DNA of 49,315 nucleotides, taken from the NCBI GenBank assembly GCA_030655315.1, contig JAURVT010000051.1, positions 1-49,315 on the forward strand, given 5' to 3'. This document shows, in pieces, positions 1,202-45,402 of the stretch (positions are counted from its first letter, which is position 1; every line of letters starts with the position of its first letter). The position numbers and the translations under genes were made by a program. Below the pieces are notes generated by a model. The model had not been told where the DNA came from, ran no database searches, and saw only the letters and a list, made by a program, of their open reading frames with translations. Source of the DNA: Nocardioidaceae bacterium (GTDB lineage: Bacteria > Actinomycetota > Actinomycetes > Propionibacteriales > Nocardioidaceae).

Positions 1202-2700
1202 CCACCCGGGGCCGTGTCGTGATGCTCGTGCACAAGGCCGTCGAGGGCGACTCGCGGGTGCAGAAGCAGGCCCGGTCCGCGGCCGAGCGCGGTTGGGACG
1301 TGGTGCTGCTCGGACGCTCGCCCGACGGCCACGAGCACGTCAGCCACCTCGGCGAGGCCGAGGTCCGGCTCGTCCCGGTCCCGGTGCCGCTCAAGCAGCG
1401 CCCCTACGAGACGAGGGCCGCCTGGTGGCGCGCGCCGCTGGCCTACGGCACCGGCCGCGTCGGCCGCTACCGCGTGGCGGTGGCGCGGGCCGGCCAGGTC
1501 GAGCAGACGGTCCGTCGCGCCGCGGCCTCCGCCGCCGGTGAGGGCGGGCGCGACGTGTCCCTGGTGGCCGCCCGCGTGCTCACGGCCGGCTACGCCAAGG
1601 CCACCCGGGTGCGGCTCTCGCGCACGGTCTCCGCGCAGCGTCGCCGCCGGTTGCTCGACCGGCCCCTCGACCGCGCCACCACCGCCCTGCGGGTCCGCCT
1701 CGGCGGCGTCCGGGCCTGGCGGACGCTGCACCCGGCCATCCACGACCTCGACCTCGCCCTCGGCCCCGTGGTCGACGAGCTGCGTCCCGACGTGGTGCAC
1801 GCCAACGACTTCACCACGCTCGGCATCGCGGTCACGGCCTCGTGGCGCGCCCGCGCCGAGGGCCGCCGTGTCGCGGTCGTCTGGGACGCGCACGAGTTCC
1901 TGCCCGGGATCACCGCGTGGGACAAGAACCCGCGCTGGATGCCCGCGCAGCAGGCGTACGAGGCCGAGCACGCCCCCTACGCCGACGCCGTCGTCACCGT
2001 CTCGCCCCGGCTGGCCGAGCTGCTGCAGCAGCAGCACGACCTGCCCGTCCTGCCCCGTGTCGTGCTCAACGCGCCCGAGGCCGAGCAGCGCGCCCGTGCC
2101 GAGGGCGTGCCGCGCGACCTGCGCACCGACTGCGGCATCGGCGACGACGACCCGCTCCTGGTCTACAGCGGCGGCGCGGCGCCCCAGCGCGGCCTCGGCT
2201 CCCTCGTCGACGCGCTCGCCGACCTGCCCGGCGTGCACCTGGCCCTGGTGCTCCCGGCGTCCGACCGGCCCTACCCGCGAAGCCTCGTCGAGCGCGCGAC
2301 GGCGCTCGGCGTCGACGACCGGCTGCACCTGCTGCCGTACGTCGAGGTGGACGAGGTGCCCCGCTACCTGTCGGGCGCCGACGTCGGCGTGATCCCGATC
2401 CTGCACGTGCTGAACCACGAGATCGCCCTGATCACCAAGTTCTTCGAGTACGCGCACGCCCGCATCCCCGTCGTCGTCAGCGACGTCGAGACGATGGCCG
2501 CCGCGGTCCGCGACGTCGGCCACGGCGAGGTGTTCGTCGCCGACGACGCCGCCGGGCTCGCCGCAGCGGTGCGCCGCGTGCTCGACGACCCCGAGCGCTA
2601 CCGCGCGGCCTACGACCGTCCGGGGCTGCTCGACGCGTGGTCCTGGGAGCGCCAGGTCGACGTCCTCGACTCCGTCTACGCCGAGGTCACCGCGCGGTGA
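1198..2700 (+). CDS. GT4-family glycosyltransferase (500 aa)
   Basis: A complete paralogue of the preceding gene. It starts with ATG at 1198, inside the stop of the upstream gene. The N-terminal Rossmann half opens with RGRVVMLVHKAVEGDSRVQK, a typical acceptor-domain start (a GDSRV-type motif with a basic residue nearby). An Arg/Ala-rich helical insertion of about 100 residues follows, then HANDF, WDAHEFLPG and the donor domain starting LLVYSGGAAPQRG, with the late motif ALITKFFEYAHARIP. It is probably a cytosolic retaining glycosyltransferase of polysaccharide or teichoic-acid-like polymer synthesis. Its last codons overlap the GTG of the epimerase gene (GTGA), so the two are probably translationally coupled. 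Specificity is unknown. Confidence 0.87.
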   Translation: MTTRGRVVMLVHKAVEGDSRVQKQARSAAERGWDVVLLGRSPDGHEHVSHLGEAEVRLVPVPVPLKQRPYETRAAWWRAPLAYGTGRVGRYRVAVARAGQVEQTVRRAAASAAGEGGRDVSLVAARVLTAGYAKATRVRLSRTVSAQRRRRLLDRPLDRATTALRVRLGGVRAWRTLHPAIHDLDLALGPVVDELRPDVVHANDFTTLGIAVTASWRARAEGRRVAVVWDAHEFLPGITAWDKNPRWMPAQQAYEAEHAPYADAVVTVSPRLAELLQQQHDLPVLPRVVLNAPEAEQRARAEGVPRDLRTDCGIGDDDPLLVYSGGAAPQRGLGSLVDALADLPGVHLALVLPASDRPYPRSLVERATALGVDDRLHLLPYVEVDEVPRYLSGADVGVIPILHVLNHEIALITKFFEYAHARIPVVVSDVETMAAAVRDVGHGEVFVADDAAGLAAAVRRVLDDPERYRAAYDRPGLLDAWSWERQVDVLDSVYAEVTAR

Positions 2701-3794
2701 GGGTCGTCAGCGTCGTCGGGGCCCGGCCCCAGCTGGTCAAGCTGGCGGCGGTCGCGGCGGCGTTCGAGGGCACGCCCCACGAGCACGTGATCGTCCACAC
2801 CGGTCAGCACTACGACGCCGACCTGTCCGACGTGTTCTTCGACGGCCTCGGCATCCCCGCGCCCGACGTGCACCTCGGCGTCGGCTCGGGCAGCCACGGC
2901 GTGCAGACCGGCGCCGTGCTCAGCGCCATGGACGCCGTGCTCGACGCCCGGCGTCCCGACTGGGTGCTCGTCTACGGCGACACCAACTCGACGCTGGCCG
3001 GGGCACTGTCGGCGGTCAAGCTGCACCTGCCCGTCGCGCACCTCGAGGCCGGCCTGCGCTCGTTCAACCGGCGGATGCCCGAGGAGCACAACCGGGTGCT
3101 CACCGACCACGCCGCCGACCTCCTGCTCGCGCCCACCCAGGACGCCGTCGACCACCTCGCCGTCGAGGGGCTGGCCGAGCGCACCGAGCTGGTCGGCGAC
3201 GTGATGGCCGACGTGTGCCTGCGCGTCCGTGACGCCGTCCACGCCGGCGACCACCCGCCGCCGGTGCTCCCCGACGGCATCGACCCGTCCGCGCCGTACC
3301 TCCTCGCGACGCTGCACCGGCCCGACAACACCGACGACCCGGCGCGGCTCGACGCCCTGCTCGACGCGCTCGCGGCCCTGCCCGTGCCCGTCGCGCTGCT
3401 CGCCCACCCGCGCCTGGTCGCCCGCGCGGCGGCGCACGGCCTCGACCTCGCCCGGGGGTCGGTGCGTCCCGGGCGTCCGCTGCCGTACGCCGGGCTCGTC
3501 GCGGCGGTCGAGGGATCGGTCGGCGTCGTCACCGACTCCGGCGGCCTGCAGAAGGAGGCGCGCTGGCTGCGGCGTCCCTGCACGACGCTGCGTCCCGAGA
3601 CCGAGTGGCTCGAGACGCTCGCCCACGGCTGGAACGTCCTCGTCCCCGACCCCCACCTCGACCCGGTCGACCGCTGGGTCGCCACCGCCACCCGGACGGC
3701 CCCCGTGGTGGTCGACGACCCCGACGCGCCCGACGTCGGCGGCGCCGCGCACCGCGTGGTCGACGCGCTGACCCGTCACCGGAGCCCGACGTGA
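2697..3794 (+). CDS. wbpI: Non-hydrolysing UDP-sugar 2-epimerase, WbpI-like (UDP-GlcNAc3NAcA 2-epimerase)
   Basis: This is a 365-aa enzyme of the WecB/MnaA/WbpI fold, close to the family's usual length. The GTG at 2697 overlaps the previous stop. Visible motifs are GARPQ (8-12), HTGQHYD (34-40), GVGSGSHG (61-68), YGDTNST (93-99), HLEAGLRS (115-122), PEEHNR (128-133), SGGLQKEA (281-288) and RPETEW (299-304). The GARPQ, GSGSHG and SFNRRMPEE wording resembles WbpI/WlbD-type epimerases, which convert UDP-2,3-diacetamido-2,3-dideoxyglucuronate to the manno form, more than E. coli WecB with its GTRPE start. The other WbpI-pathway enzymes are at 7245, 30483, 31592 and 44779. The alternative is plain UDP-GlcNAc 2-epimerase (UDP-ManNAc formation). 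The fold and epimerase role are secure; the exact substrate is inferred. Confidence 0.9.
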   Translation: MRVVSVVGARPQLVKLAAVAAAFEGTPHEHVIVHTGQHYDADLSDVFFDGLGIPAPDVHLGVGSGSHGVQTGAVLSAMDAVLDARRPDWVLVYGDTNSTLAGALSAVKLHLPVAHLEAGLRSFNRRMPEEHNRVLTDHAADLLLAPTQDAVDHLAVEGLAERTELVGDVMADVCLRVRDAVHAGDHPPPVLPDGIDPSAPYLLATLHRPDNTDDPARLDALLDALAALPVPVALLAHPRLVARAAAHGLDLARGSVRPGRPLPYAGLVAAVEGSVGVVTDSGGLQKEARWLRRPCTTLRPETEWLETLAHGWNVLVPDPHLDPVDRWVATATRTAPVVVDDPDAPDVGGAAHRVVDALTRHRSPT

Positions 3795-5107
3795 CCCGCC
3801 CGCACCTGCTGTTCCTCGCCGTCGGCTTCCCGCCGGCCGCCAAGAGCTCGACCTACCGCCTGCGCGAGATGGCCAACCAGCTGGTGGCCGCCGGCTGGGA
3901 CGTCACCGTGCTCACCACCGTCGACGAGTCCTGGGAGCGCGACTTCGGCGTCGACCTCACGCTGCTCGACGACGTCGACCCGGCCGTCCGCGTGGTCAAG
4001 CTGCCGCTGTTCCGGGAGGACCTCGAGACCGACGTGCGGCTGATGAGCCGCGAGCGCGCCGCCGACCCGCGCGGCTGGCGCCGGCGGCACCTCGCGCGCA
4101 ACGAGGACACGTTCCCCGAGGCGGCCTTCGGCGGCTGGCTGCCCGAGCTGTGCGCGGCCGTCGACCGCCTGCACGGCGAGCGCCCGGTCGACCTCGCCCT
4201 GGCCAGCTGCGTGCCCTACACCCTGCTGGGCGTGCTGCAGCACCTGCACGCGACGGCCGGCGTCCCCTACGCGGTGGACTACCGCGACGGCTGGTCGGTC
4301 GACGTGATCGGTGGCGACGAGGCCTTCGAGGTCGACTCCCGACGCGGACGTCTGGAGCGCGACGTGCTCGGCCGCGCCACGTGGATCACGTTCGTCAACG
4401 ACGCGATCGGCGACTTCTACGCGGGCCGCTTCCCCGAGCTCGCCCCGCGGATGCACGTGGTGCGCAACGGCTACGACCGCGCGAGCGTGCCGCCCGTCCG
4501 CCCGCAGGGGCCGCTCGCCGAGGACGGCGTGCACTTCGGCCACGTCGGCGTGCTGACGTTCCCCGTCGAGATGCTCGCCGCGCTCCTGGAGGGCTGGCGG
4601 CTCGCTCGCAGCCGTGACCCGCTCGTCGCGCGCTCGCGGCTCACCTTCCGCGGCCCCACCGGTGCCGGCCCGTTCCAGGGCGCCAACGACCACGTCGAGA
4701 TGCTGCGCCTCGCGGCGGGCGACGGCGTCGAGTACGGCGGACCGGTGCCCAAGGCGCAGATGGCCGACCTCTACGCCGGGTGGGACGCGCTCGTCCTGCT
4801 CGTCATGGGCGGCCGGTTCATGACGTCGGGCAAGGTCTACGAGTACGCCGCCACGGGCCTGCCGATCGTCTCGGCGCACGCCAAGGACCACGACGCGGCG
4901 GCCGTGCTCGAGGGCCGCGACCTGTGGACGGGGCCGCTGGGCGTCGACGTCGAGGCGCTCGCCGCCGGCTTCAGCGAGGCCGCGAGGTGGGCCGTCGAGG
5001 CCGACCGGTCCACCCGCGAGGTCGCCGCCGGGCACGGTCGCGGGTTCGCCCGCGACGACCTGATGCGCCGCGCGATCACCGCCCTCACCGCCGAGGTCCG
5101 GTCGTGA
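3791..5107 (+). CDS. GT4-like glycosyltransferase (438 aa)
   Basis: Starts at GTG 3791 within the epimerase stop (GTGA overlap). The N-terminus LLFLAVGFPPAAKSSTYR followed by REMANQLVAAGWDVTVLTT is the classic GT4 acceptor-domain start, with a Pro-Pro loop and a residue set after it for acceptor binding. Residues near DYRDGWSVDV and the linker VRNGYDRA lead into a donor domain with FGHVGVLTF and the C-terminal SGKVYEYAATGLPIVSAH motif, where E/Y residues usually contact the nucleotide-sugar. It differs from the HANDF-type paralogues around it and looks like a separate lineage (WbuB-like). No signal peptide or membrane segment is visible. It probably adds one sugar of the repeating unit. Confidence 0.82.
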   Translation: MTRPHLLFLAVGFPPAAKSSTYRLREMANQLVAAGWDVTVLTTVDESWERDFGVDLTLLDDVDPAVRVVKLPLFREDLETDVRLMSRERAADPRGWRRRHLARNEDTFPEAAFGGWLPELCAAVDRLHGERPVDLALASCVPYTLLGVLQHLHATAGVPYAVDYRDGWSVDVIGGDEAFEVDSRRGRLERDVLGRATWITFVNDAIGDFYAGRFPELAPRMHVVRNGYDRASVPPVRPQGPLAEDGVHFGHVGVLTFPVEMLAALLEGWRLARSRDPLVARSRLTFRGPTGAGPFQGANDHVEMLRLAAGDGVEYGGPVPKAQMADLYAGWDALVLLVMGGRFMTSGKVYEYAATGLPIVSAHAKDHDAAAVLEGRDLWTGPLGVDVEALAAGFSEAARWAVEADRSTREVAAGHGRGFARDDLMRRAITALTAEVRS

Positions 5108-5580
5108 GGAAGGCGCTGGTGGTCGTCGTCGGCGCGGCGCGTCCGGCCGTCCTCGTGGGGCACCTGGCCGAGCTCTCGGCGCGCGGCTTCGACGTCACCG
5201 TCGTCACCCCCAAGCGGCAGGCGGCCCGGTTCGCCGACGCGGGCGTCGCCCTCGTCACGATCAAGTCGCGCAAGGCCACCGCGCCGGAGGTGGTCGCCCG
5301 CATCGCCCTCAGCAAGCCCAAGGTCGTCGAGCACGCCCTGACCGCCGACCTCATCGTCGCGGCCGACGACCGCGCGCTGCTCACCGTCTGGCAGCTGGCC
5401 CGGGTCAACCGGACGGCCGTCGCGCGCTACGGCATGGCGCCCGCGCTGCGCGTGCTCGACGACGTCCCGCGCCGCACGTCCGCCCAGGTGCGGCGCGACC
5501 GGCTCCGGCACCGGGTGCGCGGGCTGCGACGCGTGGCGGTCACGCAGGCGCGGCGCGTCGTCCGGCGGGGCCGCACGTGA
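5104..5580 (+). CDS. Short Rossmann-like protein resembling the N-terminal part of a glycosyltransferase
   Basis: This 158-aa product starts with GTG at 5104 in a GTGA overlap with the GT4 gene. Its opening, KALVVVVGAARPAVLVGHLA followed by ELSARGFDVTVVTP, looks like the first beta-alpha-beta unit of a GT4/GT-B acceptor domain. The protein then ends in a very basic tail (many Arg, RRVVRRGRT) with no donor-binding domain. I do not recognise a named family. It could be a decayed glycosyltransferase, a regulatory half-protein that pairs with a neighbouring GT, or a membrane-surface scaffold that uses its basic tail. The frame is intact and the overlap retained, so it is probably expressed. Function unknown. 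Confidence 0.6.
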   Translation: MRKALVVVVGAARPAVLVGHLAELSARGFDVTVVTPKRQAARFADAGVALVTIKSRKATAPEVVARIALSKPKVVEHALTADLIVAADDRALLTVWQLARVNRTAVARYGMAPALRVLDDVPRRTSAQVRRDRLRHRVRGLRRVAVTQARRVVRRGRT

Positions 5581-5591
5581 GCGGCGTCGAG

Positions 5592-5597
5592 TACGCT
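5592..5597 (+). promoter_or_regulatory. -10 box TACGCT for the GT2 gene, leaderless start at GTG 5606
   Basis: TACGCT lies 8 nt before GTG 5606. This spacing recurs at several genes in the window and would place the transcription start on or next to the start codon. The box lies just after the stop of the upstream gene, giving the GT2 its own promoter inside the gene string. Confidence 0.4.
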
Positions 5598-5605
5598 CCG
5601 TGACC

Positions 5606-7219
5606 GTGGCGGCCACCGAGGTACCGGACGTCACCGTCGTCGTGGCGGTCTACAACACGATGCCGTACCTGACGGCGTGCCTGGAGTCGGTGGTCGAGCA
5701 GACGCTCGGCGTCGACCGCATCGCCGTCGTCGCCGTCGACGACGGGTCGACGGACGGCAGCGGCGCGGAGCTCGACCGGTTCGCCGCCGCGCACCCCGGG
5801 CTGCTGACCGTGCTCCGCCAGCCGAACTCCGGGGGACCCGCCGCCCCCAACAACCGGGCGCTCGAGGTGGCCACCGGCCGCTACGTGTTCTTCCTCGGCG
5901 CCGACGACCACCTCGGCACCGAGTCGCTGGAGCGCCTGGTGACGGCCGCCGACCAGCACGACGCCGACGTCGTGTTCGGCCGGATGGTGGGCACCAACGA
6001 CCGCCACGTGCACCAGAAGATCTACCGGCAGACCGACCTCGACCTCGACCTCTACGACTCCGAGCTGCCGTTCGCGCTGGCCAACACCAAGCTCTTCCGC
6101 CGCTCGCTGGTGGAGGAGCAGGGCCTGCGGTTCCCCGAGGACCTGAAGATCGGCAGCGACCAGACCTTCACCATCGCCGCGCTGGTGCACTCCCGGCGCA
6201 CCTGCGTCCTCGGCGACTACACCTTCTACTACGCCGTCCGGCGCCACGACGCGAGCAACATCTCCTACGACGCGACGTGGCGCGACCGGCTGTGGAGCGC
6301 GCGCCGGATCATGGACGAGGTGGCGACGCAGCTGCCGCCGGGCGAGCGGCGCGACGCCGTCCTGCGGCGCCACCTCACCTGGGAGCTGGCCAAGCTGCTC
6401 CGCGAGGACTTCCTCGAGCTCGACGAGGACGAGCAGGTCGAGCTCGTCGAGGGCGTCGGCAAGCTCTGCGACACCTACTTCACCGACGACCTCAAGCAGC
6501 TGATCGGCGTCAAGCGCCGGATCCGGCTGTGCCTGGCCGAGGCGCGCCGCGTCGACCTCCTGCGCGAGCTGCTCGCTCGCGAGCGCGAGCACGGCGACCC
6601 GCCGTTCGTGGCCGAGGCGGAGCGCGCCTTCGCCGCCTACCCCGGCTACGCGGGCGACCGCGGCGTCCCGCGCGAGTGGTACGAGCTGTTCGACGAGACC
6701 GTGGGCGGCCGGCTGCGCGACGGCGTGCGGGTGTCGTCGACCCGGCTCACCCGCCGCGGTCTCGCCCTGGAGGGGTCGCTGGGGGCGACGCCCGGGCACG
6801 TCGTCGTCGGCGTGCACCTGCGTGACGTCGAGCGTCGGCACGCCGGCGGTGCCCGGTCCGCCCGGCAGCCCGAGGAGCTGCCGCCCGCGGCCCCCGTCGA
6901 CACCCGCGTGGAGCCGTCCGACGACCTGCGGAGGGGGCCGGCGTCGACGTTCGCGACGGTCGTGCCGCTCGAGCGCCTCGGACGCGGCGGCATCGTCGCG
7001 CCCCGGCTGCGGGTGCAGCTCGGCGGCCACGCGTACGACCTGCCCGTGCACTGCGGCCACCTGCTGACCCGGCCCGAGCACGTCCGCTGGCACGGCCTGC
7101 GCCGGGTGCGGACCCTCGCCGTCCTGGACGACTCCGGCAACCTCGTGGTCGAGTCCTCGACCCTAGGATGGTCGTCGTCGATGAGACGGGTGGCGCAGCG
7201 CCTGCGCCGCCGTCGCTGA
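5606..7219 (+). CDS. GT2-family glycosyltransferase with C-terminal extension (537 aa)
   Basis: A GT-A fold inverting glycosyltransferase. It shows VTVVVAVYNTMPYL, the UDP-binding VDDGSTDGSG, the metal-binding GADDH after YVFFL, and a later SDQTF with YYAVRRHDASN, followed by a C-terminal region of about 250 residues that probably forms beta-rich domains. I chose GTG 5606 rather than GTG 5600 because a TACGCT -10 box at 5592-5597 fits a leaderless start at 5606; choosing 5600 adds only two codons. It is strongly similar to the GT2 at 34114-35703, including the long LFRRSLVEE and GSD-QPF/QTF stretches, so the two are paralogues. It acts in the cytosol on the growing glycopolymer. Donor unknown. 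Confidence 0.88.
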   Translation: MAATEVPDVTVVVAVYNTMPYLTACLESVVEQTLGVDRIAVVAVDDGSTDGSGAELDRFAAAHPGLLTVLRQPNSGGPAAPNNRALEVATGRYVFFLGADDHLGTESLERLVTAADQHDADVVFGRMVGTNDRHVHQKIYRQTDLDLDLYDSELPFALANTKLFRRSLVEEQGLRFPEDLKIGSDQTFTIAALVHSRRTCVLGDYTFYYAVRRHDASNISYDATWRDRLWSARRIMDEVATQLPPGERRDAVLRRHLTWELAKLLREDFLELDEDEQVELVEGVGKLCDTYFTDDLKQLIGVKRRIRLCLAEARRVDLLRELLAREREHGDPPFVAEAERAFAAYPGYAGDRGVPREWYELFDETVGGRLRDGVRVSSTRLTRRGLALEGSLGATPGHVVVGVHLRDVERRHAGGARSARQPEELPPAAPVDTRVEPSDDLRRGPASTFATVVPLERLGRGGIVAPRLRVQLGGHAYDLPVHCGHLLTRPEHVRWHGLRRVRTLAVLDDSGNLVVESSTLGWSSSMRRVAQRLRRRR

Positions 7220-7244
7220 CCCCGCACCCCACCCGAGGAGCACC

Positions 7245-8528
7245 ATGCAGATCGCCGTCGTGGCCCTGGGCAAGATCGGCCTCCCGCTGGCCGTCCAGTT
7301 CGCCGTCAAGGGCCACCGGGTGGTCGGCTGCGACGTCGACATCGCCCGCGTCGAGGCGGTCAACGCCGGCATCGAGCCCTTCCCCGGCGAGCACGACCTC
7401 GACGTCAGGCTCAAGGACGTCGTCGCGTCGGGCCTGCTGACGGCCACCACCGACACCGCCGCGGCGGTCGCCGGGTCCGACGCCGTGGTGATCGTGGTGC
7501 CCCTGTTCGTCGACGCCGACGGCGTGCCCGACTGGGGCTGGATGGACGCCGCCACCCGCTCGGTGGCCGCGGGCCTCAAGCCCGGCACGCTGGTGTCGTA
7601 CGAGACGACGCTGCCGGTCGGCACCACCCGCGACCGCTGGGCGCCGATGCTGCAGGAGGGCTCGGGCCTGGTGCCCGGGCAGGACTTCCAGCTGGTGTTC
7701 AGCCCCGAGCGCGTCCTCACCGGACGGGTCTTCGCCGACCTGCGTCGCTACCCCAAGCTCGTCGGCGGCATCGACGAGGCGTCGGCCGCGCGCGCCGTCG
7801 CGTTCTACGAGGAGGTCCTCGACTTCGACGACCGCCCCGACCTCGACCGCCCGAACGGCGTCTGGGACCTCGGCTCGTCCGAGGCGTCCGAGCTCGCCAA
7901 GCTCGCCGAGACCACCTACCGCGACGTCAACATCGCGCTGGCCAACCAGTTCGCCCGCTACGCCGACCGCGTGGGCATCGACGTCCGCAAGGTGATCGAG
8001 GCCAGCAACAGCCAGCCCTACAGCCACATCCACCAGCCCGGCATCGCCGTCGGCGGCCACTGCATCCCGATCTACCCGCAGATCTACCTGTGGAACGACC
8101 CCGAGGCCACCGTGGTGCGCACCGCCCGCCAGGCCAACGCCGCGATGCCCGAGTACGCCGTCGACCTCCTCGCCGCCGCCCACGGCGACCTGGACGGCGC
8201 GGGCGTCCTCGTCCTCGGCGCCGCCTACCGCGGCGGGGTGCAGGAGACCGCGTTCTCCGGCGTGTACCCGACCGTCGAGGCCCTGCGGGCCCGCGGCGCC
8301 GTCCCGTACGTCACCGACCCGCTCTTCACCGACGCCGACCTCGAGGCCCTCGGCCTCCCGCCGCACCGCGGCGAGCCCGTCGTCGCCGCCGTCCTCCAGG
8401 CCGACCACGCCGAGTACCGCACCCTCACCGAGGCCGACCTCCCCGGCGTCCGCGTCCTCGTCGACGGCCGCCGCACCACCGACCCCGCCCTCCTCGGCTC
8501 CATCCGTCGGGTGGTCATCGGGGGCTGA
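7245..8528 (+). CDS. UDP-HexNAc 6-dehydrogenase (WbpA/WecC family)
   Basis: This 427-aa protein belongs to the UDP-glucose/UDP-GlcNAc dehydrogenase superfamily. The N-terminal NAD domain has VALGKIGLPLA. The middle helices include SPERVLTGR and SEASELAKLAETTYRDVN. The catalytic Cys is residue 273 in GGHCIPIYP, and a C-terminal UDP-binding domain follows (VLGAAYRGGVQETAFS). These enzymes perform two successive NAD-dependent oxidations at C6, giving a uronic acid. Together with the epimerase at 2697 it could make UDP-ManNAcA (WecC role). With the aminotransferase, dehydrogenase and acetyltransferase elsewhere in the window it fits WbpA (UDP-GlcNAc to UDP-GlcNAcA). ATG 7245 follows a clear GAGGAG ribosome site, and a TAGGAT box at 7164-7169 may be its promoter. 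Confidence 0.88.
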   Translation: MQIAVVALGKIGLPLAVQFAVKGHRVVGCDVDIARVEAVNAGIEPFPGEHDLDVRLKDVVASGLLTATTDTAAAVAGSDAVVIVVPLFVDADGVPDWGWMDAATRSVAAGLKPGTLVSYETTLPVGTTRDRWAPMLQEGSGLVPGQDFQLVFSPERVLTGRVFADLRRYPKLVGGIDEASAARAVAFYEEVLDFDDRPDLDRPNGVWDLGSSEASELAKLAETTYRDVNIALANQFARYADRVGIDVRKVIEASNSQPYSHIHQPGIAVGGHCIPIYPQIYLWNDPEATVVRTARQANAAMPEYAVDLLAAAHGDLDGAGVLVLGAAYRGGVQETAFSGVYPTVEALRARGAVPYVTDPLFTDADLEALGLPPHRGEPVVAAVLQADHAEYRTLTEADLPGVRVLVDGRRTTDPALLGSIRRVVIGG

Positions 8529-16193: not shown

Positions 16194-19484
<3,291 letters not shown>

Positions 19485-34112: not shown

Positions 34113-34113
34113 G

Positions 34114-37669: not shown

Positions 37670-40600
37670 GCCGGCTCGTCGCCGAGGAGCGCGCGGGCGA
37701 CGCGCCCGGTGGCCTTGCCGTCGTGGAGGGCGTTGAAGCGGCGGTTGAACGCCGCGACCTCCTCGCCGTACCGGGCCCGCAGGGCGGGCAGGTCGGCCAG
37801 CGCCTCGGCGGTCTGCTCGGTGGTGGTGGTACGCGGTCCGGGCGTGGTGCCGTCGTAGGGGAACAGCGGCGGACGGCCCTTGAAGTACGTGTCGAGGTCG
37901 GGCACGAAGAACACCATCGGCTTGCCGGTGAGCGCCCAGTCGAAGCGGAGCGAGGAGTAGTCGAGCACCGCGGCGTCGGCGGCGATCGTCAGGTCGTTGA
38001 TGTCGGGGTAGTCGGTGGCGTCGACGACCTGGGCGCGTCCGAGCTCGCGGACGTGCTCGCGCTGGTTGTTGTTGTGCCCGCGCAGGAGCAGGACGTGGTC
38101 GGGCCCGAGGGCGCGCGTGAGGACGTCGAGGTCGAGCTCGTCGAACCGCTTGGCCGCGAACACCCGGGTGGTGAGGTGGTCGCGGTAGGTGGGGGCGTAC
38201 ATGACGACCGTCTTGGCCGGGTCGATGCCCAGCCGGCGGAGGACCCGCTCGCGGACCTGCGCCGCAGCGTCGTCGGGCTGGACGAGCGCGTCGCAGCGCG
38301 GGTAGCCCGTCACGAGGATCTCGCCGGTGTAGTCGTACTCGTCGCGGTACATCTGCGCGGTGTCGTCGCTGGGGACGACGATCGCGTCCCACTCGGCGTT
38401 GCGACGGGCCGTCTCGCGGTCGATGCGGCCGGGCGTGAACATCCGGCCCTCCCAGAAGGTGCGGCCCATCGACTTGAACGGGTAGCCGTGGAACGTCTGG
38501 ACGTAGCGCTGGTGCGGGCGGGTGAGGAAGAAGGGGTCGAAGTCGACGTTGGTGCACAGCCAGCGCGCGCGGCCGATGGTCTCGTACCACTCGCGGCTGA
38601 ACATCAGGACGGGCACGCCGCCCTCGGGGACGATCGTCGAGCGGTCGGCGACGCCCCAGTAGAGGGTCAGGTCGGGGCGGGTCTCGCGCAGGTGGTGGTG
38701 CAGCGCGAGCTGGCTGTCGGCGGCCACCTCGCCGCGGTAGCACTGGAGGTAGACCGCGTCCTCGGGCTCCTGCACCGTCTCGCGGAACCACGTCTTGAGC
38801 TCGCGCTGGCGCGGGCGGCTGCGCTCGGTGAGGTCGAGCGGCGGGTGGATCGTCAGACGAGTCTCGCCGACCCGGGCGTAGCTGAAGCGGCTGGTCAGCC
38901 AGCTGCCGGTGCGCTCGACGGGCATGGCGGCGACGAGCTCGGGGGTGCCGTCGGCGGCCACCGTCGAGCCGTCGGGGGCGGTGGCCACCAGCTGGTAGTG
39001 CCCGCACGGCACGGCGGCCGGCTCGAGGTCGAACAGCGAGACCGTGGTGGGGAAGCGCAGCGTCAGCTCGTGGTCGCCGACGTCCTCGACGGCCTCGGGC
39101 GCGACGGAGAGCCGGTCGTTGGTGATCGAGGTGGTCCGGACCACCTGCTCGTCCAGGCCGTCCCAGACGACGCGGACGCGCAGGGCGTCGTCGTCGGCGA
39201 CGGTCTGCGTCACCTCGAGCCGGGGGCGGTCGACCAGGGCGACGGCGCGGGCGTCGGGGGTGCGGCGCCACCAGCCGTGACCGGCACCGGCCGAGCCCAC
39301 GGCGTGACGGGACTCGGAGCCGGGCCAGCGGACGGGCTCGAGCGACCCGTCGGGCAGCACGACGCGGACGTCCCAGGTGCCCTGCTCGTCACCGGTGGCG
39401 GCGGGGAGGTCGAGCGCGAAGTCGAAGGCCTGTGCCCCGGCACCGCGGGGGCCGACCTCGACCCGCTCGCCGGTGCCACGACGTGACGCGCGCACGGCCT
39501 GCGGACGGCCGGGACCGGCCCAGGTGAAGGTGCCGGTGACGCGGCGGCCGGACGCGGCGAGCGCGGTGGTGGTCAGCGCGTCGGTGACGAGGGTGAGGCC
39601 GAGGCCGCGGCCGCTGTCGAAGGCGGGGACGACGAGCCGCCCGCCCACCCAGCGCGCCTCGGGGGAGGCGGCCGACGAGCCGGCGGTGAAGTCGAGGACG
39701 TGGCCGTCGCGCTGGATGCCGGCGGAGGCGACGTGCACCTCGAGGTCGTGCGTCGGGTCGCCGGCCGTCCTCGCCCAGGCGGCGACGTCGACGCGGGCGA
39801 CGAACCCGCCGCCGGTGTAGCTGACGTTGATCTCACGGGCGTGGGTGGCGGCCGCGGGCGCCGGCGCCATCGTGACGTCGAGCGGGGTGCGGGCGCCGGT
39901 GGCGCCGTCGACGAGGGCCAGGGCGACCTCGACCGGGTACCGCTCGGTGTCGACGCCGCGGACGTGGGCCCAGCCGCGCAGCTCGAGCACGTCGTCGTCC
40001 GCCCAGACCAGGCGGTCGATCGTGGCCTGCAGCGAGACCTCGCTGTCGGCGAGGCGCAGCAGGTGCGCCGGCACGGGCGTCTCGAGCCCGAGCCCCTCGA
40101 CCAGCGACGCGTCGACGGCGACGACGCCGTCGGTGACCGACGTGGGCGGGATGTTGCCGTAGGCGCGCAGCATCTCGGCGACGGTCTCGAGGTCGTCCCA
40201 GGCGCCGTGGGCGGCGAGGTGGGTGCGGATCTTCTGGTGCACGCGGACGGCGCGCCAGACCCGGTCGTCGTCGGTGCCGGCGGCGTCGACGTAGTGGGCG
40301 AGCGCCTGCTGCAGCCGGGCGCGGTAGGTCTCGCCGCTCTGCAGCGCGTAGGTGATGTAGAGGGAGAGGTCGGTGTCGAGGACGCGCGACAGCCAGGCCG
40401 CCTGGATCGCGGGCGAGGCCTCCTTCTCGAGGATCGCGTGCGCCTCGCGCTTCACCGCGATCCGGTCGAGCAGGTTCTGCAGCTCGTGCTTCTGCTGGCT
40501 GGTGGACGACTTGTCCTCGCGGACGCGCCAGTGGTACGTGACGCGCTTGAGCACGTCGAACGACGTGGCGCGGACGAACGCCGCCACCATCGGCACGTGG

Positions 40601-41253
40601 TCCTCGTAGGCGCCGGGCCCGAAGCCGCCGATCTGGTCGATCCAGAACTGACGGCGGATCACCCGGTTGCAGGCGATGACGTCCTGCAGCACGTCGGGGA
40701 AGTCGTCGATCGTGATGCCGATGCGGTCGCGGTCGTGCACCAGCTGGACCCAGCCGGGGTTGGTGGTCTTGCCGTTGGTGGTGCGGCGGACCGAGCCGAT
40801 GGCGAAGTCCGACCCGCTGCGGCGCAGGGCGACGACCATCGCGCGGTAGGCGCCGGCCGGGACGACGTCGTCGGCGTCGAGGAACGTCAGGTAGGTCCCG
40901 CGGGCCTGCTGGACGCCGAGGTTGCGGGCGGGTCCCTGGCCGGCGTTCTCCTGGCGGAGCAGCGTGACGCGGGGGTCGCGGGCGGCGTACTCGGCGACGA
41001 TCTCCGACGTGTCGTCGGTGGACCCGTCGTCGACGACGATGACCTCGAGGCTGGTGAGCGACTGGCCCAGCGCGCTGTCGAGGCAGGCGCGGACGTAGGA
41101 CGACACGTTGTAGGCCGGGACGACCACGCTGAGGCTCGGGACCCCGTCGTCGGACAGCCGGGAGCGCTGGTCGCGGACGCGCGCGCGGAAGGCCGGCGGC
41201 AGCCGGTGCCACGCAGCCTGCGCGAGGCGCGCGGGGCGCTGCCACTGCTTCAT
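37666..41253 (-). CDS. TagF-like bifunctional protein: active GT2 + CDP-glycerol glycerophosphotransferase (1195 aa)
   Basis: ATG 41253 is the start; the frame upstream has no homology. Residues of about 40-300 form a GT2 domain with LSVVVPAYNVSSYVRACL, VVDDGSTDD (74-82) and FLDADDVVPAG (125-135), apparently active. The middle 300-820 is beta-rich and of unknown role. The C-terminal about 365 residues match the TagF polymerase: VYLQCYRGEVAADSQLALH, FHGYPFKSMG, VVMYAPTYRD, LLLRGHNNN, and DINDLTIAADAAVLDYSSLR with the conserved Asp-Tyr-Ser-Ser. It should add sugars and polyol-phosphate alternately or in sequence to a glycosylated polyprenyl acceptor at the membrane. It is divergent from its partner at 41375 and coupled to the acyltransferase at 36575. 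Confidence 0.9.
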   Translation of the reverse strand: MKQWQRPARLAQAAWHRLPPAFRARVRDQRSRLSDDGVPSLSVVVPAYNVSSYVRACLDSALGQSLTSLEVIVVDDGSTDDTSEIVAEYAARDPRVTLLRQENAGQGPARNLGVQQARGTYLTFLDADDVVPAGAYRAMVVALRRSGSDFAIGSVRRTTNGKTTNPGWVQLVHDRDRIGITIDDFPDVLQDVIACNRVIRRQFWIDQIGGFGPGAYEDHVPMVAAFVRATSFDVLKRVTYHWRVREDKSSTSQQKHELQNLLDRIAVKREAHAILEKEASPAIQAAWLSRVLDTDLSLYITYALQSGETYRARLQQALAHYVDAAGTDDDRVWRAVRVHQKIRTHLAAHGAWDDLETVAEMLRAYGNIPPTSVTDGVVAVDASLVEGLGLETPVPAHLLRLADSEVSLQATIDRLVWADDDVLELRGWAHVRGVDTERYPVEVALALVDGATGARTPLDVTMAPAPAAATHAREINVSYTGGGFVARVDVAAWARTAGDPTHDLEVHVASAGIQRDGHVLDFTAGSSAASPEARWVGGRLVVPAFDSGRGLGLTLVTDALTTTALAASGRRVTGTFTWAGPGRPQAVRASRRGTGERVEVGPRGAGAQAFDFALDLPAATGDEQGTWDVRVVLPDGSLEPVRWPGSESRHAVGSAGAGHGWWRRTPDARAVALVDRPRLEVTQTVADDDALRVRVVWDGLDEQVVRTTSITNDRLSVAPEAVEDVGDHELTLRFPTTVSLFDLEPAAVPCGHYQLVATAPDGSTVAADGTPELVAAMPVERTGSWLTSRFSYARVGETRLTIHPPLDLTERSRPRQRELKTWFRETVQEPEDAVYLQCYRGEVAADSQLALHHHLRETRPDLTLYWGVADRSTIVPEGGVPVLMFSREWYETIGRARWLCTNVDFDPFFLTRPHQRYVQTFHGYPFKSMGRTFWEGRMFTPGRIDRETARRNAEWDAIVVPSDDTAQMYRDEYDYTGEILVTGYPRCDALVQPDDAAAQVRERVLRRLGIDPAKTVVMYAPTYRDHLTTRVFAAKRFDELDLDVLTRALGPDHVLLLRGHNNNQREHVRELGRAQVVDATDYPDINDLTIAADAAVLDYSSLRFDWALTGKPMVFFVPDLDTYFKGRPPLFPYDGTTPGPRTTTTEQTAEALADLPALRARYGEEVAAFNRRFNALHDGKATGRVARALLGDEPA

Positions 41254-41374: not shown

Positions 41375-44300
41375 ATGAGCCCTGCCGATTCCGTCGGCCG
41401 CCGGATCGCCCGGCGCATCACCCGCGTGACCCGCCGCGCGGCCCCCACGGTCGCCGCGGGGGCGTCGGGTCCCCGACTGAGCGTCGTGGTCGACGTGCGC
41501 GAGGCCGACGAGCCGTTCCTCGGCGAGTGCGTGGCGTCCGTGCTGGCCCAGAAGCCACGGCTCGAGGTGCTGCTGGTGCTGCGTGCGGGCGCGGCCGCGG
41601 CGCACGCGGCGGCCGAGCGCCTGGCGGCCGACGACCCGCGCGTCCGGGTGGTCGAGGCCGCGGCGGTGGACGAGGTCGCGTCGCGCGCCGCGGGCGTCGC
41701 CGAGGTCGCCGGTGACCTCCTGGTGTTCCTGCGCGGGTGCGACACGGTGCCCGCGGGCTCGTACGCGCCGATGGTGAAGGTGCTCGACGACGGTGGCGTC
41801 GACCTCGCGCTCGGACGGACCCGCACCCGCCGTGGCCGACCCGACCCGAGCCTCCTCGACCCCACGCCCACGCCCCGCACGGACGTCGAGGCGTGCCCGT
41901 CGGCGCTGACCGACCCCCACCTCGGCGGCCGGATGACTCGTCGCGCCCTCTGGGACTCGCTCGGCGAGGAGCCCGGCGGCGGCGCGGAGCCGCAGGGGAT
42001 GGAGCGCGCCCTGCTCGCGGTGCTGGCGGCACGGTCGTTCGCCGTGGTCGACCGGGTCGTGAACGAGGTGCACGAGCGGGCGGCGGGCGCGCCGATCGGC
42101 ACCATCCGCCCGCTGACGCCGTCGGTGGGCGACGTGGTCGAGGCGCTCGCGCGGCTCGACGCCGTGGTGCGCGAGCGTCGTCCGGCCCTGGTGGACGCGT
42201 GGTCCCAGGCCGTGCTGACGTGCCACCTGCTGCGCTACGTCGAGGACGCCGAGCGGTTCGACGCCGACTCCTGGCGGACGGTGCGCGACGCCGTCCGGAC
42301 GTTCCGGGCACGACTCGACGGGCCGCCGGCGGTGCGGTCGTTCGAGACCGCCGTGGTGCTCGCGCTCGCCGAGGCCGACCGGCAGCCCGAGCTGGCGGCG
42401 TTCGTCGCGTCGCGCTGGTACGAGGTGCCGCACGTCGACACCGTGGTCTCCGGCGCGTCGGTGCACGCGCGGGTGCCGCAGGCAGACCTGCCGGTCGACC
42501 CCGCGCTCCTCGAGCTGCCCGAGGCCCAGACGCCGCTGACGCTCTCGCTGCGCTCGGCCCGGTGGGACGACGACGTGCTCGAGCTGGTGGTGTGGGCCGC
42601 GGTGCGGCGCGTGGAGCAGACCGACGACGTGACCGCGCAGGTCCGGCTCGTCGGGACGGGTGGGCCGCGTCCGGTGGACGTCGTCGTCCGCGACGACGTG
42701 GCCGTCAGCCGGTGGGCGGGCGACCGCTACCAGTCGCACGACCGCGGGGTGCTCGTCGTGCGCGTGGGCGCGGACGACCTCGAGGCGCTGGACGACGAGG
42801 CGCTGATCGAGGTGACGCTGCAGGTCGGCGGCGTGGTGCGGACCGCGACGGTGGCGGCGGCCGACCGGTTCGGCGCCCTGGCGCCGGGGGCTCGGGGCAC
42901 GCTCGGGCGGAAGCACTGGCTGCGCGACCGGCCGCGTCCGGCACTGGTGGCGCGGCACGTGCGGGCGAGCGCGATCGAGATCGCCGTCGACGGTCGCAAG
43001 GTGTCGGGCATCGCCTCGGCCCCCGTGGTGGCGGTGCGTGGCAAGGAGCAGGTGGAGGCGACGTCGTCGGACGCCGCGTTCGTGCTCGACCTGCCCGCGG
43101 TCGCGTCGACCGCGGAGACCCCGCCGCGCTGGGAGCTGCACGGCCGCGGCGAGGACGGCGCGCTGGTGCCGCTGGACGCCGACCGCTGCGACGTCCTGGG
43201 TGACAGCGGCCTGCACGCCACCGCGCGCGGCGCCGTGGTCGTCGACGACCTGGGCGGACGCTGGCAGGTGACGGCGGTGCGCGTCGAGGGCGAGGTGCTC
43301 GAGCTGGGGGGCCGCTGGTGCGGTGAGGCGCTCGAGGCGTCGGTCCGGTTGGCCGGCCCCGTGGTCGCGGAGGGCGTGCTCGGCGACGGGCACGCGTCGC
43401 TGCCGCTGACGGCGTCCCGCGGGGGCGGGCCGGAGCTGCCGCTGCCGTCGGGCTCGTACCGCGTGGAGGTGACCGTCGGGGGACGCGCGCTCCCGGCGGT
43501 GTGGGCCGACGACGTGCGCTCCCGGGCGGGCGAGCGGGTCGACACCGAGAGCCTGCGGATCGACCTGCGCCAGGGCGGCGGGCCGTGGCTCGTGCTCGCG
43601 GTCGGACCGCGCGTGGGCGACGACGAGGTCGGGCCGCGCGCGCAGGAGGTGCTGCGGCACCGGGCCGCGTCGGCGCCCGTCGTGCTGGAGGACGCGGTGT
43701 ACCTGCAGTCCTACGACGGCCGCGCCGCCGTCGACTCGCCGCTCGCGCTCCACACCGAGCTGCGGCGGCGCGACGAGGGCCACGTCCTGTTCTGGGGCGT
43801 GCGCGACCTGTCGACGCCGCTGCCCGAGGGTGGGGTCCCGCTGGTGATCGGCAGCCGCGAGTGGCACCGGGTGGTCGCCGGCGCGCGGCACCTGGTGAGC
43901 AACGTCGACTTCGACCGGCGCGTGCGGATGCTGCCGCACCAGCGCTTCCTGCAGACGTTCCACGGGTACCCGTCCAAGGCGATGGGGCTCGGGCTGTGGC
44001 GGGCCAAGGGGTTCACGCCGCGCCGCATCGAGGCCGAGCGGCGCCGGACGGTGGAGGAGTGGACCGCCATCCTCACGCCCACGCCCGAGATGGACCTGCA
44101 CTACCGCGAGCAGTACGGCTACGACGGCCCGATCCTCGACCGCGGCCTGCCGCGCGACGACGTGCTGGTCTCGCCCGGGGCCGACGACGTGCGCCGCCGC
44201 ACCCGCGAGCGGCTCGGCATCGGGCCCGACCAGGTGGCCGTGCTGTACGCGCCGACCTGGCGCGACGACGTCGCCACCGGCTACGAGAGCGCGCCCGGCG

Positions 44301-44782
44301 TCACCCACCTCGACCCGTACGCGACCGCCGCGCGGCTCGGCGACGGGTACGTCGTGCTGGTGCGCGGCCACCGCTTCCACGCCCCCGCGGGGGTCACCGG
44401 CGACGGCGGCGTCGTCGACGTCACCGACCACCCCGACGTCAACGACCTGATCCTCGCGAGCGACGTGGGGGTCTTCGACTACTCGTCCATCCGCTTCGAC
44501 TTCGCGGTGACGGGACGCCCGATGGTGTTCCTGGTGCCCGACCTGGAGTCGTACGCCGGCGGCGGCCGCGGCTTCCTGTTCCCCTTCGAGGACTCCGCCC
44601 CGGGCCCCCTGCTCCGCGACGCCCGCGAGGTGGTCGACGTGCTCCGCGACCCCGCCGCGCTCGCCCGCGCCCACGCGTCCGACCTCGCCGCGTTCAACGC
44701 CCGCTTCAACCCCCACCACGACGGCGGCGCGTCGGCGCGCGTCGTCGACGCCTTCTTCGGGGACCGGGGCCTCGGGGGCTAG
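41375..44782 (+). CDS. TagF-like protein: degenerate GT2 + CDP-glycerol glycerophosphotransferase (1135 aa)
   Basis: ATG 41375 has GAGG seven nt upstream. The N-terminal domain aligns with the 37666 GT2 (RLSVVVDVREADEPFLGECV), but the Asp-Asp-Gly-Ser is Leu-Arg-Ala-Gly (69-72) and the metal site is Arg-Gly-Cys-Asp (120-123), so sugar transfer is probably lost. The middle is beta-rich. The C-terminal about 360 residues keep the polymerase motifs: VYLQSYDGRAAVDSPLALH, FHGYPSKAMG, VAVLYAPTWRDD, LVRGHRFH and VNDLILASDVGVFDYSSIRF. It may thus only transfer polyol-phosphate, with the GT2-like part used for binding. Its TAG stop shares the bases CTAG with the stop of the convergent acetyltransferase gene. 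Confidence 0.88.
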   Translation: MSPADSVGRRIARRITRVTRRAAPTVAAGASGPRLSVVVDVREADEPFLGECVASVLAQKPRLEVLLVLRAGAAAAHAAAERLAADDPRVRVVEAAAVDEVASRAAGVAEVAGDLLVFLRGCDTVPAGSYAPMVKVLDDGGVDLALGRTRTRRGRPDPSLLDPTPTPRTDVEACPSALTDPHLGGRMTRRALWDSLGEEPGGGAEPQGMERALLAVLAARSFAVVDRVVNEVHERAAGAPIGTIRPLTPSVGDVVEALARLDAVVRERRPALVDAWSQAVLTCHLLRYVEDAERFDADSWRTVRDAVRTFRARLDGPPAVRSFETAVVLALAEADRQPELAAFVASRWYEVPHVDTVVSGASVHARVPQADLPVDPALLELPEAQTPLTLSLRSARWDDDVLELVVWAAVRRVEQTDDVTAQVRLVGTGGPRPVDVVVRDDVAVSRWAGDRYQSHDRGVLVVRVGADDLEALDDEALIEVTLQVGGVVRTATVAAADRFGALAPGARGTLGRKHWLRDRPRPALVARHVRASAIEIAVDGRKVSGIASAPVVAVRGKEQVEATSSDAAFVLDLPAVASTAETPPRWELHGRGEDGALVPLDADRCDVLGDSGLHATARGAVVVDDLGGRWQVTAVRVEGEVLELGGRWCGEALEASVRLAGPVVAEGVLGDGHASLPLTASRGGGPELPLPSGSYRVEVTVGGRALPAVWADDVRSRAGERVDTESLRIDLRQGGGPWLVLAVGPRVGDDEVGPRAQEVLRHRAASAPVVLEDAVYLQSYDGRAAVDSPLALHTELRRRDEGHVLFWGVRDLSTPLPEGGVPLVIGSREWHRVVAGARHLVSNVDFDRRVRMLPHQRFLQTFHGYPSKAMGLGLWRAKGFTPRRIEAERRRTVEEWTAILTPTPEMDLHYREQYGYDGPILDRGLPRDDVLVSPGADDVRRRTRERLGIGPDQVAVLYAPTWRDDVATGYESAPGVTHLDPYATAARLGDGYVVLVRGHRFHAPAGVTGDGGVVDVTDHPDVNDLILASDVGVFDYSSIRFDFAVTGRPMVFLVPDLESYAGGGRGFLFPFEDSAPGPLLRDAREVVDVLRDPAALARAHASDLAAFNARFNPHHDGGASARVVDAFFGDRGLGG

Positions 44783-44817
44783 GCCTCCGGGGGCTGGGCC
44801 TCCGGGGCCTGGGCCTC
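44768..44817. repeat. 15-bp tandem repeat across a convergent gene junction
   Basis: Units GGCCTCGGGGGCTA, GGCCTCCGGGGGCTG and GGCCTCCGGGGCCTG, plus a partial fourth, run through both stop codons. On the minus strand they encode the Ala/Pro/Glu repeats (QAPEAQPPEA) at the end of the acetyltransferase. Replication slippage here would change that tail. Confidence 0.7.
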
Positions 44818-45402
44818 GACCGGCTCCAGGCCGTCGGCGACCTCGCGGTAGAGGCGGCCGGTGCCGGGGCAGCGCCAGCCGTCGTCGTCCTGCTCGAGCC
44901 GGACGCCGGCGTGGCCGACCCAGCCGATCCGTCGGGCGGGGACACCGACCACGAGACCGAACGGCGGCACGTCCCGCGTGACGACCGATCCCGCCGCGAC
45001 CATCGCCCAGGCCCCGATCCGCAGCGGTGCGACGCAGACCGCGCGGGCGCCGACCGAGGCCCCGTCGCCGATCTCGACGCCGACGGGCTCCCAGTCGGCG
45101 CCGGACTTGAGCGACCCGTCGGGGTTGACGGCGCGCGGGTTGCGGTCGTTGGTGAGCACGACGGCCGGGCCGATGAAGACGCCGTCGCCGAGGCGCGCCG
45201 GCTCGTAGACGAGGGCGTGGTTCTGCAGCTTGCAGTGGTCGCCGATCTCGACGCCCGCGCCCACGTAGGCGCCGCGCCCCACGACGCAGCCCGCGCCGAG
45301 GACCGCGCCCTCGCGCACCTGGGCGAGCTCCCAGACGGTGGTCCCGTCGCCCACGGTCGCCTGCTCGGACACCTGGGCGGTCGGCTTGACGGTGGGGCTC
45401 AT
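44779..45402 (-). CDS. wbpD: Hexapeptide-repeat N-acetyltransferase, WbpD-like
   Basis: This 207-aa left-handed beta-helix protein has repeated hexapeptides (VGDGTTVWELAQVREGAVLG, VGAGVEIGDHCKLQNHALVY, VFIGPAVVLTNDRNPRAVN, VGARAVCVAPLRIGAWAMVA). It ends the fold with VVVGVPARRIGWVGHAG, a wording typical of WbpD/WlbB-type enzymes. Those acetylate the 3-amino group of UDP-GlcNAc3NA from acetyl-CoA, giving UDP-GlcNAc3NAcA. It completes the set with the genes at 7245, 30483, 31592 and 2697. The C-terminal about 40 residues (WRCPGTGRLYREV, then an Ala/Pro/Glu repeat) are an extension. The promoter TAGGCT is at 45450-45455. It is monocistronic; overlap with the 41375 gene is 4 bp. Confidence 0.87.
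   Translation of the reverse strand: MSPTVKPTAQVSEQATVGDGTTVWELAQVREGAVLGAGCVVGRGAYVGAGVEIGDHCKLQNHALVYEPARLGDGVFIGPAVVLTNDRNPRAVNPDGSLKSGADWEPVGVEIGDGASVGARAVCVAPLRIGAWAMVAAGSVVTRDVPPFGLVVGVPARRIGWVGHAGVRLEQDDDGWRCPGTGRLYREVADGLEPVEAQAPEAQPPEA

Follow-up and report, generated by a model that had tools for sequence, protein, structure and literature searches.

A probable wall-polymer island with a dispersed gene set for UDP-ManNAc3NAcA in a Nocardioidaceae bacterium

A wall-polymer region with a five-enzyme set

Contig JAURVT010000051.1 of a Nocardioidaceae bacterium (assembly GCA_030655315.1, 4.18 Mb in 57 contigs) carries members of all five enzyme families for the synthesis of UDP-2,3-diacetamido-2,3-dideoxy-D-mannuronate (UDP-ManNAc3NAcA). 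The whole contig (C44 in our numbering, 49,315 bases) was analysed and is called the window here. We consider it very probable that this region is a wall-polymer island, in which UDP-ManNAc3NAcA is made and incorporated into a polymer resembling teichuronic acid, attached most likely to wall teichoic acid, and that the wide spacing of its genes results from rearrangement of a compact order like the one seen in a genome of the same family (G020). Gene names of the Utr type used below refer to the teichuronic acid locus of Streptomyces griseus.

A simple gene call gave 33 genes in the window. A sequence-only reading of this DNA had pointed to five open reading frames (ORFs) as the pathway enzymes, and the start and family of each were borne out by the ORF list, the gene call and the Pfam and NCBIfam matches; all five are open and full length. 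They encode a UtrH/WbpI-like UDP-GlcNAc3NAcA 2-epimerase (2697..3794, + strand, 365 aa, PF02350), a UtrD-like UDP-sugar 6-dehydrogenase (7245..8528, +, 427 aa, UDPG_MGDP_dh domains), a UtrA-like DegT sugar aminotransferase (30483..31595, +, 370 aa, PF01041, TTG start), a UtrB-like Gfo/Idh UDP-sugar 3-dehydrogenase that is GnnA-like and not WbpB-like (31592..32593, +, 333 aa) and a UtrJ/WbpD/WlbB-like hexapeptide N-acetyltransferase (44779..45402, − strand, 207 aa). The start of the 3-dehydrogenase at 31592 is taken from the gene call, and the ORF list alternatively gives a longer reading from 30974. Spacing and strand predict three transcription units, namely 86-8528 (+) with the epimerase and the 6-dehydrogenase, 30483-35703 (+) with the aminotransferase and the 3-dehydrogenase, and 44779-45402 (−) with the acetyltransferase alone.

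In the proposed pathway, UDP-GlcNAc, or its 6-oxidised form, would be aminated at C-3 by the 3-dehydrogenase and the aminotransferase and acetylated at the new amino group by the hexapeptide enzyme; the 6-dehydrogenase would produce the uronic acid and the 2-epimerase would yield UDP-ManNAc3NAcA. TarS-like and GT4 transferases would then build the chain.

The epimerase and its partner enzymes

All three sequence motifs noticed initially in the epimerase (GARPQ, GSGSHG and SFNRRMPEE) are present. Its best PDB match is 8sxv, a UDP-2,3-diacetamido-2,3-dideoxy-glucuronic acid 2-epimerase (331 bits); the next kind is represented by the UDP-GlcNAc 2-epimerase 4neq (215 bits), and 1vgv, which we take to be E. 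coli WecB, scores 100 bits. The window enzyme is 50% identical to the Thermus and 52% to the Deinococcus epimerase, and the catalytic residues compared are retained. Substrate choice in these enzymes, according to the accessible part of PMC10622841, is set by Trp307 (Arg in UDP-GlcNAc enzymes), Tyr96 and Ala18 in Thermus numbering. The window epimerase has two of these three marks, with Trp at 307, Tyr at 96 and Leu at 18, while WecB has Arg (E. coli) and His at the places of 307 and 96, respectively. We compared 127 other epimerase loci, of which 113 are close (at least 58% identity, 109 distinct sequences) and 14 distant (13 distinct). Trp307, Tyr96 and Leu at 18 occur in every one of the 113 close epimerases. 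Trp307 is the telling mark, because all 14 distant epimerases have Arg at this position, yet 8 of the 14 have Tyr96 and 8 have Ala18. Thus, by bit score (331 versus 100) and by Trp307 and Tyr96, the epimerase is WbpI-like, as the sequence-only reading had proposed, and does not group with WecB. It is also the sole PF02350 match found in its genome, and there is therefore no second epimerase of the same family to supply UDP-ManNAc to a WecC-type dehydrogenase. A plasmid search for epimerases returned three distant ones and nothing more. Locus L148 comes from a record whose title, Sporosarcina beigongshangi, names a member of the Bacillota; its epimerase shares 63% identity with that of the window, which may reflect transfer or a mislabelled or mixed assembly.

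The hexapeptide acetyltransferase is of the WbpD/WlbB kind by sequence. Its best PDB match is the lipopolysaccharides biosynthesis acetyltransferase 3mqg (126 bits, the next match reaching 84), which we take to be WlbB, and it is 38% identical to the Deinococcus enzyme. The VGVPARRIGW stretch described as its ending is present but lies about 45 residues before the end of the protein.

The 6-dehydrogenase has matches at the family level only, to NDP-sugDHase (274 bits, cut-off 190) and, as its best structure, to 4r16 (212 bits); it is 80% identical to its G020 counterpart and up to 81% to those of Streptomyces and Micromonospora loci. The aminotransferase matches PF01041 with 430 bits, is 42% identical to its Deinococcus counterpart and probably acts at C-3. 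It shows the motif FSFYPTKN, whose lysine presumably holds pyridoxal phosphate, and FSFYP.KN is found in 7b0d, 2oga and QdtB. These three and perosamine synthetases score higher than WbpE (235 bits) in sequence searches (7b0d 305, 2oga 297, QdtB 253, perosamine synthetases 240) and also in profile searches (WbpE 297; 7b0d 382, 2oga 339, QdtB 311, perosamine synthetases 320). With these searches, the specific ties to WbpA and WbpE that had been suggested for these two enzymes were not obtained.

Co-inheritance of the five genes

Genomes with an epimerase scoring above 300 bits were drawn from 81 family-level and 296 class-level genomes. Relatives of the other four enzymes are present in all 44 of them, a few being cut by contig ends. 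As a contrast we used eight hand-picked genomes with weaker, distant epimerases: none has the aminotransferase, the 3-dehydrogenase or the 6-dehydrogenase at the limits used, and an acetyltransferase match is found in one (124 bits). Across the 296 class-level genomes, the close epimerase (above 300 bits) and the 3-dehydrogenase (E up to 1e-90) occur together in 41, the epimerase alone in none, the dehydrogenase alone in 18 and neither in 237 (Fisher p = 2e-36, with relatedness ignored). The five enzymes are a co-inherited set. At least 576 loci were confirmed; among the best 80 that were named, 79 are titled actinomycetes. In the description accessible in PMC13274773, S. antibioticus is without utrH and makes a GlcNAc3NAcA homopolymer; by analogy, the 18 genomes with the dehydrogenase only may resemble this case.

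Correspondence to the Utr locus

The S. griseus Utr locus, described in 2025, is reported in the accessible part of PMC13274773 to direct a ManNAc3NAcA-GalNAc chain on wall teichoic acid. It consists of utrA (aminotransferase), utrB (oxidase), utrC (TarS-like transferase), utrD (UDP-sugar dehydrogenase) and utrE (4-epimerase), from which utrF-J diverges with two glycosyltransferase genes, utrH (2-epimerase), utrI (acetyltransferase) and utrJ (N-acetyltransferase) (PMC13274773). Relatives of eight of the ten Utr proteins are encoded in the window: A (30483), B (31592), C (34114, with a further copy at 5600), D (7245), F (25907), G (3791), H (2697) and J (44779). UtrC corresponds to a GT2 with a TarS linker in the aminotransferase/3-dehydrogenase unit (34114..35703, +; TarS_linker 37 bits, cut-off 27), and a second such GT2 adjoins the 6-dehydrogenase (5600..7219, +; TarS_linker 51 bits). 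The UtrG-like protein, a GT4-like glycosyltransferase assigned by place and similarity (3791..5107, +), shares 51-55% identity with the proteins encoded after the epimerase in G020, G220, G170 and four Streptomyces loci. The UtrF-like glycosyltransferase (25907..27346, +) corresponds to the C-terminal part of its relatives.

The window genes were mapped onto 19 of the 80 named loci, six of them from Streptomyces. Four of these (L074, L078, L082 and L086) show J, H, G and F, followed on the opposite strand by a gene at the E place and by D, C, B and A, in agreement with the published utrA-E and utrF-J; G220 also shows the full order. Two loci, L079 (S. anulatus) and L095, are without matches to F and to the E place. 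The S. anulatus cluster as given in the accessible part of PMC13274773 has neither an epimerase gene nor an O-acetyltransferase gene, in line with L079.

The prediction of an anionic wall polymer with a diamino-uronic acid is well supported at the level of sequence, because eight of the ten proteins of Utr, a ManNAc3NAcA teichuronic acid locus, have relatives encoded in the window. As the accessible part of PMC13274773 makes clear, neither this polymer nor its genes are new to actinomycetes. Besides that paper we recognised, by titles and the starts of abstracts, no gene-level account of an actinomycete ManNAc3NAcA locus among the papers listed from the open literature.

The 3-dehydrogenase and the order of oxidation

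The five-enzyme set for UDP-ManNAc3NAcA and its WbpI- and WbpD-like members agree with the proposed Wbp route; the 3-dehydrogenase does not, being no relative of WbpB. Its nearest structure by sequence is 7bvj (GnnA), with 75 bits, 110 in the profile search and 27% identity. GnnA is also first in a fold search with the predicted model (mean pLDDT 83), by a small margin (E 2.8e-25 in the first row; the third, at 8.9e-25, is another enzyme). Somewhat further by sequence is 3q2k (54 bits, profile 74), which we take to be the Bordetella 3-dehydrogenase WlbA. The best NCBIfam match is NF040723, an archaeal UDP-GlcNAc 3-dehydrogenase (195 bits, below its cut-off of 450). No entry named WbpB is found among the 56 PDB matches, nor among the 60 of 72 profile matches listed. 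A Deinococcus plasmid, where the pathway is likewise proposed from its genes, served as control: its epimerase has Trp307, Tyr96 and Ala18, and the 3-dehydrogenase beside this WbpI-like epimerase matches WbpB structures with 426 and 346 bits. The window 3-dehydrogenase aligns with this control over 131 residues only (25%). By sequence, therefore, it lies outside the Pseudomonas/Thermus WbpB subfamily.

Since the enzyme is non-WbpB with GnnA as its nearest relative, C-3 may be oxidised before C-6. The same sugar would then arise by oxidation and amination of UDP-GlcNAc at C-3, with the oxidation at C-6 coming later, an order that is compatible with the wall-polymer reading and competes with the Wbp order (C-6 first) alone. 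The proximity of GnnA in sequence and fold, the archaeal NCBIfam match and the contrast with the Deinococcus control all point in this direction. On the other hand, kinship of 27% does not fix a substrate, GnnA is set apart only weakly from other Gfo/Idh enzymes in the fold search, 3q2k is just somewhat further by sequence and the NF040723 score is far below its cut-off. We regard this order as possible, with clearly less than even chances. It departs from the published view, which in the accessible part of PMC13274773 takes the Utr route as similar to the Pseudomonas pathway. A more general proposal, which we put forward as speculative and rather doubtful, is that actinomycetes including the Streptomyces with Utr use a hybrid route, with GnnA-type oxidation of C-3 first, late oxidation of C-6 and finishing enzymes of the WbpD and WbpI type. 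If so, the 3-dehydrogenase in genomes without a close epimerase (18 of the 296) would supply GlcNAc3NAcA polymers as in S. antibioticus. In any case, a 3-dehydrogenase outside the WbpB group turns the order of steps into a concrete, testable question.

Scatter of the pathway genes

In 37 genomes, the other four genes share a contig with the epimerase; the widest five-gene span, 42.7 kb, is that of the window, the median across the 37 being 10.8 kb. The genes had been described as normally contiguous and their splitting as unusual: the window is indeed extreme, but the spans in the other 36 genomes already range from 5.0 to 23.6 kb. One pair is constant, the aminotransferase adjoining the 3-dehydrogenase in all 44 genomes with a gap of 0-198 bp. 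In G020, the genes for the epimerase, UtrG, UtrF, UtrA, UtrB, UtrC and UtrD form one run on one strand, with UtrJ on the opposite strand, and within about 40 kb there are relatives of the window's RmlCD, RmlB, both TagF-like proteins, RmlA, a DUF6270 gene, a DUF2520 gene and panC. In the window, UtrD stands beside the epimerase, and UtrA and UtrB are 22 kb off.

The window and G020 also differ in the utrF region. The UtrG-like gene is followed in G020 by a gene for a 698-aa UtrF-like protein and in the window by a 158-aa ORF (5104..5580, +, no Pfam match), which resembles the N-terminal part of the UtrF-like proteins in relatives (53 aa at 43% identity for G220, 153 aa at 25% for G020). The product of 25907-27346 aligns with residues 232-697 of the G020 protein (45% over 470 aa) and with residues 240-707 of the G220 protein (43%). 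By sequence, the ORF at 5104 and the gene at 25907 fit a break through utrF. UtrF-like alignments that start at or after residue 134 are also seen in 8 of 37 relatives (L152, cut by a contig end, was left out), one of which (L126) has an N-terminal match just upstream. The best identity of the 25907 product is to a short UtrF form, and a tree leaves this copy unplaced on a long branch. Because of these three observations we treat a single insertion that split utrF as a possibility only; the short forms in relatives and the unplaced window copy also make a separate UtrF remnant possible.

The two UtrC-like proteins are 45% identical to each other, and at this identity we rejected a recent duplication. 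The copy at 34114 groups with those of G020 and of Nocardioidaceae (support 98/96, with a long-branch warning), and the copy at 5600 is weakly placed. Between the UtrF part and UtrA lies a DUF222 gene (29066-30382), whose family, PF02720, has 22 matches in this genome; it shares 74-83% DNA identity with 8 of the 11 other copies fetched and has no match at 1e-10 to the other three. That this gene served as a recombination site is a guess.

Overall, the scatter looks like a lineage-specific rearrangement rather than a three-operon design, and the wide spacing would have arisen from a compact order like that of G020. A functional arrangement, in which the three units are kept apart for separate regulation, would account for the acetyltransferase, which is a separate gene in relatives too: it stands apart on the opposite strand, at a distance from the aminotransferase of 12-14 kb in G302, G220 and G170 and of 4-5 kb in G020 and G012. 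The utrA-E and utrF-J genes of S. griseus also form separate units in the accessible account (PMC13274773). The compact G020 run with its many neighbours in common, and the N-terminal UtrF-like ORF and doubled UtrC of the window, argue against such a design, which we consider unlikely. Compared with the compact G020 order, the window offers an example of an intact set of genes whose members seem to have been drawn apart.

Destination of the sugar

Two TagF-like proteins are encoded between the pathway genes. One consists of a GT2 and a CDP-glycerol glycerophosphotransferase (37666..41253, −; PF04464, 249 bits) and has a G020 relative with 51% identity over 1191 aa; the second (41375..44782, +; PF04464, 247 bits) has one with 46% over 727 aa, a match cut at the edge of the fetched stretch. 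Elsewhere in the genome, contig C15 holds TagG/TagH-like genes next to an IspD-SDR fusion (TarIJ-like), and contig C11 encodes one more TagF-like protein. Judged by sequence similarity, these genes favour the presence of wall teichoic acid in this bacterium. G302 encodes a relative of the fusion with 62% identity, some 18 kb beyond its acetyltransferase gene; no TarIJ, TarG or TarH match was found in the 100-kb stretches of the same-family genomes G020 and G012 at the limits used. The C15 stretch (L163, 3869-13254) comprises a CDP-alcohol transferase, a weak PF04464 pair, a pyruvyl transferase, the IspD-SDR fusion and the TagG/TagH-like exporter, and 190 bases lie between its last called gene and the end of the contig.

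The sugar could instead go to another surface glycan, such as a capsule or an S-layer/protein glycan, and two proteins encoded inside the region would suit that destination, one a surface protein with CWB2 repeats (23798-25381) and the other a PMT_2 membrane protein (22015-23451). Against it stand the glycosyltransferases with TarS linkers, the TagF-like proteins and the Utr-like gene kinds, and no polysaccharide polymerase, flippase or ABC exporter family is found in the Pfam matches of the 33 window proteins (two of which are without any match); we rate this destination as improbable, slightly more so than separate regulation. Still less probable is a decaying locus that makes no complete polymer: the window UtrF-like gene without its N-terminal domain could be taken as a sign of decay, but the five enzyme ORFs are open and full length, and UtrF-like alignments with a late start are found in several relatives.

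Several observations do weigh against the wall-polymer reading. In the epimerase, Leu replaces Ala18, as it does throughout the close relatives, although Ala18 is present in the Deinococcus and two haloarchaeal epimerases that carry Trp307; Lys245 of the allosteric pocket is Ala. The Utr assignments rest on similarity and place relative to other Streptomyces loci and on the gene list of the paper, not on the S. griseus sequence itself. UtrF is represented by its C-terminal part only. No UtrE-like 4-epimerase was seen in the window, where RmlB alone gives a match (about 30%), and UtrI was not identified there. The G020 and G220 loci each carry a gene of the NAD-dependent epimerase family (at the E place in G220), and the G220 gene between those for the epimerase and the acetyltransferase has no Pfam match. 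UtrE- and UtrI-type genes vary between species, according to the accessible part of PMC13274773. Finally, the TarIJ-like and TagGH-like genes score below their NCBIfam cut-offs and lie on another contig, and the TarIJ-like fusion might be an IspD, because the other IspD-family match found in this genome is weak (31 bits).

Synthesis of ManNAcA by WecB- and WecC-type enzymes, with an unrelated aminotransferase/dehydrogenase pair nearby, is largely refuted and has hardly any probability left: NCBIfam does name the epimerase wecB (223 bits, cut-off 210) and the 6-dehydrogenase does score on UDP-ManNAc dehydrogenase models, below their cut-offs, but we rejected this reading on the bit scores and key residues of the epimerase (Trp and Tyr where WecB has Arg and His), the co-occurrence in 44 of 44 genomes argues against it too, and the wecB model name does not separate the two kinds, because the same model matches the WbpI-like Deinococcus epimerase with 307 bits.

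Other features of the region

Further glycosyltransferases of the GT4 type are encoded in two of the units. Two paralogues with glycosyltransferase Pfam matches head the epimerase unit (86..2700, +), and a third lies in the aminotransferase unit (32610..34112, +, by Pfam). The two are 53-54% identical to each other and to the third, which is 56% identical to Micromonospora and G012 copies. Genes for dTDP-rhamnose comprise an RmlC-RmlD fusion with RmlB (14793..17191, −; RmlB above its NCBIfam cut-off) and RmlA (20012..20884, +; TIGR01207, 460 bits, cut-off 361). The fusion ORF (14793-16196) scores above the RmlC and RmlD cut-offs of Pfam and below those of NCBIfam, and has a G020 relative (63% over 457 of 467 aa). 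The added GT4 and rhamnose genes suggest a larger repeat.

Just upstream of rmlA, two direct repeats of 52 nt lie at 19876-19984, with starts 57 nt apart and 87% alike. The gene at 17270-18727 encodes a 485-aa protein without a Pfam match. The convergent genes 7245-8528 and 8879-9982 are separated by a long inverted repeat (8532-8867) with imperfect arms of 103 nt, 83% complementary, and a 130-nt spacer. Compared with 100 shuffled versions, 8525-8875 has a far lower folding energy (z -14.6). A word from this repeat, GGTTTGCGCCG, was found in 1 of 192 loci, namely L070, which overlaps that place. GC content ranges from 66.8 to 77.0% across the window in 2-kb steps, and the CWB2-repeat protein is encoded in the step with the lowest value (66.8%), inside the proposed wall-polymer island.

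Comparison with known systems

The Wbp pathway of Pseudomonas, Thermus and Deinococcus, as presented in the accessible part of PMC10622841, shares with the window a WbpI-like epimerase, a WbpD/WlbB-like acetyltransferase and a DegT aminotransferase; the window differs in its 3-dehydrogenase, which is not a WbpB relative, and in the Leu of its epimerase in place of Ala18. The structure nearest to that 3-dehydrogenase, at 27% identity, is GnnA of Acidithiobacillus ferrooxidans (7bvj, 7bvk), a UDP-GlcNAc 3-dehydrogenase. GnnA works in lipid A, and A. ferrooxidans has lipopolysaccharide. The wall/matrix polysaccharide of Cutibacterium acnes, in the accessible part of PMC6598116, is another actinomycete polymer with ManNAc3NAcA, the likeness being at the level of the sugar.

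The closest known system is the S. griseus Utr locus, in so far as the accessible part of PMC13274773 describes it. Both have UtrA, B, C, D, F, G, H and J or their relatives, transferases with TarS linkers and TagF-like genes in the region. In the window no UtrE-like gene was seen and UtrI was not identified, the order is broken over a five-gene span of 42.7 kb, the UtrF-like protein is reduced and UtrC is doubled; beyond the S. griseus set there are extra GT4 copies, rhamnose genes and acyltransferase-3 genes. In Streptomyces, Utr-type teichuronic acid has been described as a receptor of umbrella toxins in the accessible literature. The window would place a Utr-type locus for teichuronic acid in another family, within a wall island that includes rhamnose genes.

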